From: Brachyhypopomus gauderio
Taxonomy: Eukaryota > Chordata > Actinopteri > Gymnotiformes > Hypopomidae
NCBI RefSeq assembly: GCF_052324685.1
Contig: NC_135212.1
Span: 21,712,637 to 21,776,636, forward strand
Direction of reading: 5' to 3'
DNA length: 64,000 nucleotides
Shown: in pieces, positions 46,301 to 49,300 of the stretch
Position numbering within the stretch: position 1 is the first letter of the stretch
How the letters are laid out: every line of letters starts with the position of its first letter
Notes under the pieces: generated by a model
What the model was told of the DNA's origin: nothing
What the model saw: only the letters and a program-made list of their open reading frames with translations
The model's database searches: none
Translations under genes and position numbers: made by a program

Positions 46301-49300
46301 ACATCAGAGTAGGAATAGAAGAGGACGCAGTGGGACACCTCCCCGTCTCTGCCAGCTCTCCCAGACTCCTGGTAGTAGCCCTCCACTGACTTGGGCAGAC
46401 TGGCGTGGATCACGTACCGCACATCAGGCTTGTCGATGCCCATGCCAAATGCAATGGTGGCACACATGACCTAGAAAATTCCAGGTGAAAATAATTATAA
46501 GACAAATGCAGGTATGCATTGGTTTTAGTTTAAATGGAAGGCAAGGATACAAGTATAATAATTATTATTAATTGTGAGCAATGAAATAAAAGGTCATTAA
46601 AGGTTTCAAACGACTTTAACCAAAGCCCAAAGGGCAGTTTCCTGCTAAAGAAAAACATCATCTAGGTTATTACATGGTAGTTGTATGCTAATGGCCATTT
46701 GTCTAAATTGACAAGTAACATTTTGTCAAATTTTTGGAAAAGCTTTGTTAATGATTTCATTATACAAAGAACTCTCACCTGGCATCCGTCCTGGTTGATC
46801 CATTTGTTCTGGACATACTCTCGGTCGCTGTTGTTTAGCCCTGCATGGTACGCTAGTGCTGCGATACCAGCCCTTTGAAGGCTCTCTGCCATGTTGTCAC
46901 AGTCGTTACGTGACAAGCAGTACACAATCCCCGAATCACCTGGGTGGGAAGGAAAAAGGATTTAACTACTAATGGTTTAACTACTAATTTCAGTAAAATA
47001 CACTCATGTGAACAGTGTTTCAGGATCCTGTTCACTGCTAATTTCAGTGAAGTACACTCACGTGGGTAATGCTTCTGGATCCAGTTAATGCAGTCCTCAT
47101 CAACTTTCTTGGGTTTCTTAGGCAATACAGCATATTTAAGATTGTGTCTGTTGAAGCTCATCGTGAATCTGTTCAAGAAGCAAACAATGACATTTTCAGA
47201 CACCTTAAACAAGCGAACTCAGTTTAAAAGGCCACATTACTCTGTCAATATGAAGTGGGCATGAAGACCAAAAGGCAGTAAACACACCAGCAACCCTATA
47301 AGCCCCCTATGGTCCTATGTTTATTGCTGGATTTTGCCCCCTAGTGGACTAGCAGAAATTAGTTATTTTAACATTTGTAATGAAGGATGTTGTAATTAAA
47401 TTATGGCCCACCAGAAGCTTTTAACCTATACCTATATTCTAAATTTATCTGGCAGGTTGGATCAGAACCTTAACTGGGCTGGGCCCAACCCATGCGCCAC
47501 GTTTATCGAACCTGCTCCACGTATGCGGCAAGTGACCAAACAGTGGATCCAGGGCAGTATTTGGGTGTCTGGTCTAAAGGTTCGTTTGAGTTTGATGTGT
47601 TGTAACTAAACTCCGTAGGGTCCTAGCTCTCCAGGCTCAGAGGGTACAAAGGAGTGAGCTCAGAGCACATGCCAGGGACTTACACCTGGGGCCGAGCCAT
47701 GGCCTGGGACTGACACCTGGGACTGACACCTGGGACTGACACCTGGGACTGACACCTGGGACTGACACCTGGGACTGACACCTGGGACTGACACCTGGGA
47801 CTGACACCTGGGACTGACACCTGGGACTGACACCTGGGACTGACACCTGGGACTGACACCTGGGACTTACACCTGGGACTTACACCTGGGACTTACACCT
47901 GGGACTTACACCTGGGACTTACACCTGGGACTTACACCTGGGACTTACACCTGGGACTTACACCTGGGACTTACACCTGGGACTTACACCTGGGACTTAC
48001 ACCTGGGACTTACACCTGGGACTTACACCTGGGACTTACACCTGGGACTTACACCTGGGGCCGAGCCATGGCCAGCTGGTTGAGGATGTCCTTCTGCACT
48101 CGAGGCGTAGCGGTGGCTGTCAGCGCCATCACAGGAACTCTGGGAAACTTCTGCCGCAGTTCGTGCAAGCGCTTGTAGTCTGGCCGGAAGTCATGACCCC
48201 ACTACAAATCACACGATACTGAGCAATAAGCACGGAGATTTCTCTCCCTCTCCATCACTGCAGAGCTTAAACCAGGAATATGGTTACAATGCAATTCAGA
48301 ACTATTTGGGACACTTTCTTTTTTTACAAAGGTTTGGACACTGAAATAATGATCAGTGTTAGCTTTAGCTTAAACACAATGAAAGCAACAATTCAAACAT
48401 TAGGCATATGGACAACACAGACACTGTCTGAAAGTGACCAGAAAGCCTCCTGCTGTACGGTGTGAATGTGGTGGCGTCTGTACACACCTGGCTGACGCAG
48501 TGGGCCTCGTCAATCACGAAGCGGGCTAGCAGGCCTCGCTCGTACAGGTTCTGCAGTGCACTGATCATTCTCCCACTTGCACAGATCTAAGGGCACAAAC
48601 ACGCTTCAGACACAGACGCTTTCAGAAACCCAAACCTTCAATTAGTGTTGGTCAGTGTGACATAACCATGACCAGTCACCTGTATTGTTTCACTCTTGTT
48701 AGTGTTAGCGATGTTCGTGTAGTATTCTTTTAAAAACTACTGAACTCACCTTCTCTGGAGTCGCGTAAAGGAGTTTGATGAGAGGATCCTTCCGAGACAG
48801 CTGCATGTAGATTCGACTTGCCTCACCATCACTTTTATCCCCAGATAAACTAGTGGCGGGGATCTGGAAGACAACCATCCCATCATCACAGAACCGCCAC
48901 TCCTTCCTGTGCATTACGCATTTACACCAAACGTCTCTACGAAACAACTTAAGAAAGGATGATCTTACGTCTAATGTGGTGAGCTTCTGAACCTGGTCCA
49001 CAATAAGCGAACGTAGTGGTGATATCACCATGGTGACTCCAGCAGACACACAGGCGGGCAGCTGGTAGCACAGGCTTTTGCCTCCGCCTGCATGGGGAGA
49101 TCCAGACTAATGACCCAGATCCAGACTAATGACCCAGACCCATAGTTGCTGCAGGATACTGAATCAGACGTCCTAAGCCCAGTTCACACAGTAGCAACTT
49201 CTGTACTAGTCAAATCTACGTGCATTTTACAGACCTGATTCTGAAACAACGTGACCTCACGCGTCACAGAAAAACTACCAAGCCCAGACCTTTCACTCAT

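Follow-up and report, generated by a model that had tools for sequence, protein, structure and literature searches.

A minisatellite with a 13-bp unit spans an exon-intron border of the blm gene of Brachyhypopomus gauderio, and repeats the 5' splice site (donor) of that border in tandem within the following intron. We consider it quite probable that the array arose from a tandem duplication crossing the border, and that it has been tolerated as its first donor works. The array was analysed within a window, i.e. the whole 64,000-nt stretch of DNA (G000:C2:21712637-21776636), taken from a genome of 796.5 Mb in 840 contigs; unless otherwise stated, positions are those of the window, and in short motifs a slash marks the exon-intron border.

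The gene and the two coding exons carrying donor arrays are located as follows.

43311..52852, minus strand: blm coding region, with exons joined and translated; 21 coding exons, 1454 aa, without internal stop.
48053..48201, minus strand: 11th coding exon of blm, called E12; it ends in CCCCAGGT, phase 2 (gene model and junction alignment).
52755..52852, minus strand: first coding exon of blm, called E2; it ends in CCCGG, phase 2 (gene model).

In the joined model, an AG acceptor and a GT donor are found at all 20 introns. Fish BLM proteins were the top homologues of the translated model in a protein homology search, and the Bloom syndrome protein structure 4o3m_A aligns with residues 3-643 of the query, the helicase part of the blm product. 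Should the fish gene start, like the human one, with a non-coding exon 1, E12 would be exon 12. The junctions were aligned with 14 relatives, taken from 120 listed and mostly represented by gene models of other species. The nearest of the 14 was Electrophorus electricus (84% identity over aligned columns), while the Pygocentrus records reached 75-80% and an Astyanax fragment 80% by the same measure. The E12 junction reads RPQV-F in 14 of the 14 relatives; all of them carry the valine that requires a cut at GT/GTAAGT, and on this alignment the first copy of the array may be taken as the authentic donor. The E2/E3 junction aligns in 12 of the 14, namely those covering it.

On the minus strand the E12 border reads CCCCAGGT/GTAAGT, the exon ending in GGT/GTAAGT, and the unit of the array consists of the donor preceded by the final 7 bases of the exon. 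The array is composed of two blocks and a terminal element.

47865..48059, minus strand: 15 exact 13-bp copies of CCCAGGTGTAAGT; copy 1 is the authentic donor, with its +1 G at 48052.
47709..47864, minus strand: 12 exact 13-bp copies of CCCAGGTGTCAGT, in which donor position +3 is changed from A to C, giving GTCAGT.
47675..47704, minus strand: 30-bp second copy of the E12 exon end and donor, matching 48073-48044; it holds the 16th GTAAGT, with its +1 G at 47683.

Downstream of the 12 CCCAGGTGTCAGT copies the sequence reads CCCAGG, which leads into the second exon-end copy. Altogether GTGTAAGT is found 16 times in the region of the array, described by TRF as 13 bp x 27.5 with 99% matches. The original prediction of a 13-bp unit lying across the blm exon-intron border is borne out by exact copies read from 48059; the 12 altered-donor copies that it placed after the first block were found again, all exact, and its minimum of 16 near-identical GTAAGT sites in tandem agrees with the 16 counted, authentic donor included. 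Its estimate of about 15 donor copies in the intron needs correction: 15 exact copies exist, but they include the one at the border, leaving 14 intronic copies plus a terminal one. Similarly, the second exon-end copy with its donor is present, but its length is not the 28 bp proposed, identity extending over 30 bp as judged by eye.

When a two-unit 26-mer of the array was searched across the 796.5-Mb genome, its 14 matches all fell within the array, and the reversed pattern of the same 26-mer, searched as a control, had none; the array is therefore not a product of chance. The confinement of the 26-mer also rules out a dispersed repeat.

Traces of the founding event may be seen at the ends of the array. 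CCCAGG and CCCTGG, which flank the last donor at a distance of 13 bp from each other, are imperfect direct repeats, and CTGGC occurs both in the E12 exon end and in the intron. Such repeats would be consistent with slippage and with tandem duplication of a short segment over the border; their position at the founder junctions is in line with the earlier suggestion that the exon copies flanking the array reflect growth from a duplication of this kind. Since a single fixed change is all that distinguishes the copies from one another, growth would be either recent or followed by homogenisation.

The coding consequences of splicing at a later donor were followed for extensions of 13 nt x 1, 2, 3, 14 and 26, and of 369 nt (the last donor). 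All six stop after residue 870, the stop falling right behind CAG GTG, exactly as had been predicted for downstream donors. The last exon junction of blm lies at coding nt 4124 in the normal frame, and the residue-870 stop is well upstream of it. Transcripts in which translation ends prematurely, far ahead of the final junction, are targets of nonsense-mediated decay, and those from the later E12 donors should, on this geometry, be predicted targets. The later donors tested in both blm arrays break the frame, with stops after residue 870 in E12 and residue 33 in E2.

Donor strength was evaluated by a scoring matrix and by pairing with the U1 5' end. Among the 20 blm donors the authentic E12 donor ranks 14th by the matrix and 15th by U1 pairing, and since it is middling by both measures, some leak at E12 is plausible. 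By the matrix, a GTAAGT copy scores 5.95 versus 1.92 for a GTCAGT copy, while bulged U1 pairing is the same for the two (-7.1 each). A cut in the -2 register, CAG/GTGTAAGT, which would place the stop after residue 879, was also considered and rejected: U1 pairing would be slightly better (-7.1 vs -6.2), but the matrix score is worse (4.09 vs 5.95). In a single-sequence fold, to which little weight can be given, the predicted unpaired fraction is highest at the first donor (0.87, compared with 0.24-0.79; 28 copies).

Two more duplications over donors were found in the same gene.

52606..52780, minus strand: E2 donor array, 5 x 35 bp (TRF); copies 1-3 read CGG/GTGAGT, copies 4-5 CGG/GTGGGT.
46979..47086, minus strand: relic of 2 x 54 bp over the donor of E13, the exon after E12 (TRF; 42/54 identical).

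In the E2 array, as in that of E12, the repeated segment includes a genuine exon-intron border together with its donor; donors 2-5 lead to a stop after residue 33, and the GTGAGT and GTGGGT forms score 10.4 and 7.83, respectively, by the matrix. In the E13 relic the second donor is dead (ATGAGT, scoring -1.8 vs 8.16 for the first, again by the matrix), and the corresponding extension of 54 nt, or 18 aa, would stay in frame. In all three duplications this matrix assigns lower donor scores to some of the copies lying deeper in the intron, which would fit relaxed constraint, three cases proving nothing. Decay of the far donors is not firm, because the last E12 copy keeps GTAAGT, and because U1 pairing is equal for GTCAGT and GTAAGT.

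The E2 array also bears on the notion that many intronic U1 sites boost U1 recruitment and help to define an exon with a weak donor, the cut staying at copy 1. The authentic E12 donor does pair weakly with U1 (-6.2 kcal/mol, versus -13.4 at the strongest of the 20 blm donors), and another 15 GTAAGT lie behind it; but the strongest of the 20 is the E2 donor, which carries an array too. Weak donors are therefore not singled out, and such a helper role appears unlikely.

In order to evaluate how arrays are placed within blm, their positions were compared with random placement, in tests framed after the data had been seen, whose P values are accordingly post hoc. Of the six arrays that TRF finds in the gene, three include a donor in unit 1 (P = 0.0026 for at least 3, under random placement), and three of the four non-coding ones begin at a donor (P = 0.0028, under random placement sparing the gene). 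Under the latter scheme, P = 0.015 when the E13 relic is omitted (2 of 3 non-coding arrays on a donor); omission of the E12 array gives about 0.036, hand-worked from per-unit values. For background, 200 kb were sampled at even steps along contig C2, where 42 minisatellites were found, versus 17 in the 64-kb window. GTRAGT is present in 2 of the 42, corresponding to 2 of 84 unit-strands (the reversed motif in 1 of 84), and in 4 of 13 hand-picked window units, both blm arrays being among the 4. The frequent start at donors and the share of GTRAGT in the window are a hint of a local bias towards donors, or of selection, and to that extent count against a passive origin.

Other elements were observed in the window. 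A 25-bp x52 minisatellite at 5487-6796 repeats GTG/GTGAGT on the minus strand, and three separate arrays of 25-bp units, at 27427-27615, 28565-28628 and 29583-29845, look by eye like one family. A Tc1-like transposase frame (Pfam HTH_Tnp_Tc3_2 and DDE_3) lies at 2972-3817; out of 516 window frames, 10 were searched against Pfam, giving this transposase, one weak match below cut-off and 8 frames without match. A gene for a papain-family cysteine protease (56600-58380, minus strand; Pfam Peptidase_C1, E 2.4e-69, hand-joined reading) adjoins blm upstream, and the segment at 53430-56105 has inverted ends, resembling by eye a DNA transposon.

Genome-wide, three AGGTRAGT spaced by 12-42 bp give 5675 matches versus 8023 for the reversed pattern, where matches overlap and hence are not counts of arrays, and where microsatellites of the TGGA type may have raised the control figure. 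Enrichment of triple donors over the reversed pattern was thus absent in the whole genome, and the same figures, with a control possibly inflated, count against a genome specially making donor arrays. The pattern misses some arrays, because neither of those in blm fits it.

At least 19 triple-donor clusters were counted by eye among the matches listed for the first 23 Mb of C1, and flanks were examined for 17 of them, those near 16346365 and 17407610 being left out. One of the 17 was shown to sit on an exon border (exact 95% interval 0.1-29%), in a troponin T gene.

G000:C1:2518855-2518778, minus strand: troponin T exon of 78 nt (locus L032 with L048), in frame with the next exon.

This exon ends in a donor array of 4 x 38 bp. 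PDB matches of the exon to troponin T are weak alone (E 0.031 and 0.13), so the identification is carried by exon order: tblastn with a human troponin T query locates other exons of the gene to either side of the array exon, in the expected order. By eye, an acceptor-like tract precedes 12 exon bases in each 38-bp unit, and the units look like 12-nt micro-exons with a 26-nt spacer. The other 16 clusters and L032 have, in all, 13 upstream frames of at least 25 codons; 10 were searched against Pfam, the frames of L031, L035 and L046 being left out as they were read as repeats. The search gave one weak match below cut-off and missed the troponin frame itself, and is therefore insensitive. At another locus (L038, G000:C1:11311800-11312500), a donor-consensus array appears by eye to lie in an intron, just ahead of an exon of the opposite strand.

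With a second array and a relic in blm, an array in troponin T, and no enrichment of triple donors, the singularity of the E12 case is weakened. Passive growth at the border is the likeliest reading, because arrays recur elsewhere and triple-donor patterns are fewer than in the reversed control. A short tandem duplication across the blm border would have founded the 13-bp minisatellite, which would then have expanded solely into the intron, without altering the first donor or any part of the exon. As the first donor kept working, the duplication would be tolerated by selection, and could persist and grow; one donor change, to GTCAGT, is fixed in the far block. Later donors would be latent, and their occasional use would yield transcripts cleared by nonsense-mediated decay, a small leak. 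The blm frame is intact over its 1454 aa when the first donors are used, and the E12 array probably does little harm, its first copy being still usable. Like events at E2, at E13 (an older one) and in troponin T make a by-product of a minisatellite-rich genome likelier than a blm-specific device.

A more active role, in which a higher number of GTAAGT sites leads to more splicing at later donors and more decayed transcripts, array length thereby setting BLM dose, seems distinctly improbable. It would draw on the presence of 15 exact GTAAGT donors behind the authentic one, all those tested leading to a stop after residue 870, and on the middling rank of the authentic donor (14 of 20 by matrix, 15 of 20 by U1); splicing at two downstream repeat units in human IFI6 (PMC4526556) and competition between 5' splice sites 11 nt apart in DOK7 (PMC5585400) agree with it. 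Against it, triple-donor patterns are common genome-wide, a donor array is also present in the unrelated troponin T gene, and the far GTCAGT block scores lower by the matrix. A mis-assembly of the copy number, or of the whole E12 array, is very unlikely: exact copies can be lengthened or shortened by assemblers, but the order is structured (15 A-type copies, 12 C-type copies, then the exon-end copy) and arrays of other units occur at other exons (E2, troponin T). Equally far-fetched is the wider proposal that exon-border minisatellites form a genome-wide class, whose poison later donors act as fast-mutating heritable settings of productive splicing; if the two blm arrays did act in series in this way, a feedback between the length of the arrays and the level of BLM could arise, BLM itself guarding repeat stability.

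Near-identical donors spaced by 13, 35 or 38 nt offer a natural experiment on the choice of U1 and the spliceosome among equal sites, and on whether the first of many equal donors wins. Since splicing at the later blm donors would end in a stop codon, the error of splice choice could be measured directly by counting junctions. If copy number varies among fish, it would show whether expansion of a border repeat alters gene dose or is neutral, and in what way tandem duplications contribute to the evolution of introns.

A literature search by titles and abstract starts, with partial coverage of the literature, found no report of a donor array in blm. The kind of array is already known from IFI6 and from boundary repeats in human segmental duplications. 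In human IFI6 (6-16/G1P3) a minisatellite giving multiple splice donor sites was reportedly described by Turri, Cuin and Porter in 1995; its unit is said to be 12 bp, with later donors adding codons in frame. The blm units differ from these in length (13 and 35 bp), and a stop follows from each of their later donors tested; retention of the frame is not regarded as a requirement for this kind of array. In IFI6 two downstream repeat units are used as donors (PMC4526556), and the blm tandem repeats are similar in that they supply several donors; use of more than one donor, as reported for IFI6, is the feature that would make the blm arrays functionally the same.

In human segmental duplications, expansion of minisatellites at exon-intron boundaries can change splicing, the variable repeats having an average unit of 30 bp, repeated 4 times (PMC2812944). 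Those boundary repeats reportedly form new introns in recently duplicated human genes, whereas in blm the first donor of an ordinary intron is retained and copies are added behind it. In DOK7 intron 4 there is competition between two donors separated by 11 nt, one of which leads to a truncated product through a frame shift (PMC5585400); there, two unlike sites are under SRSF1 control, unlike the array of near-identical copies in blm. In a potato case a duplication with splice signals crosses an intron-exon boundary on the acceptor side and made a new intron, whereas the blm duplication is on the donor side and no new intron is seen. The blm case differs from the known ones in that the later donors tested meet a stop at once, that two arrays and a relic occur in one gene, and that another gene is affected alike.
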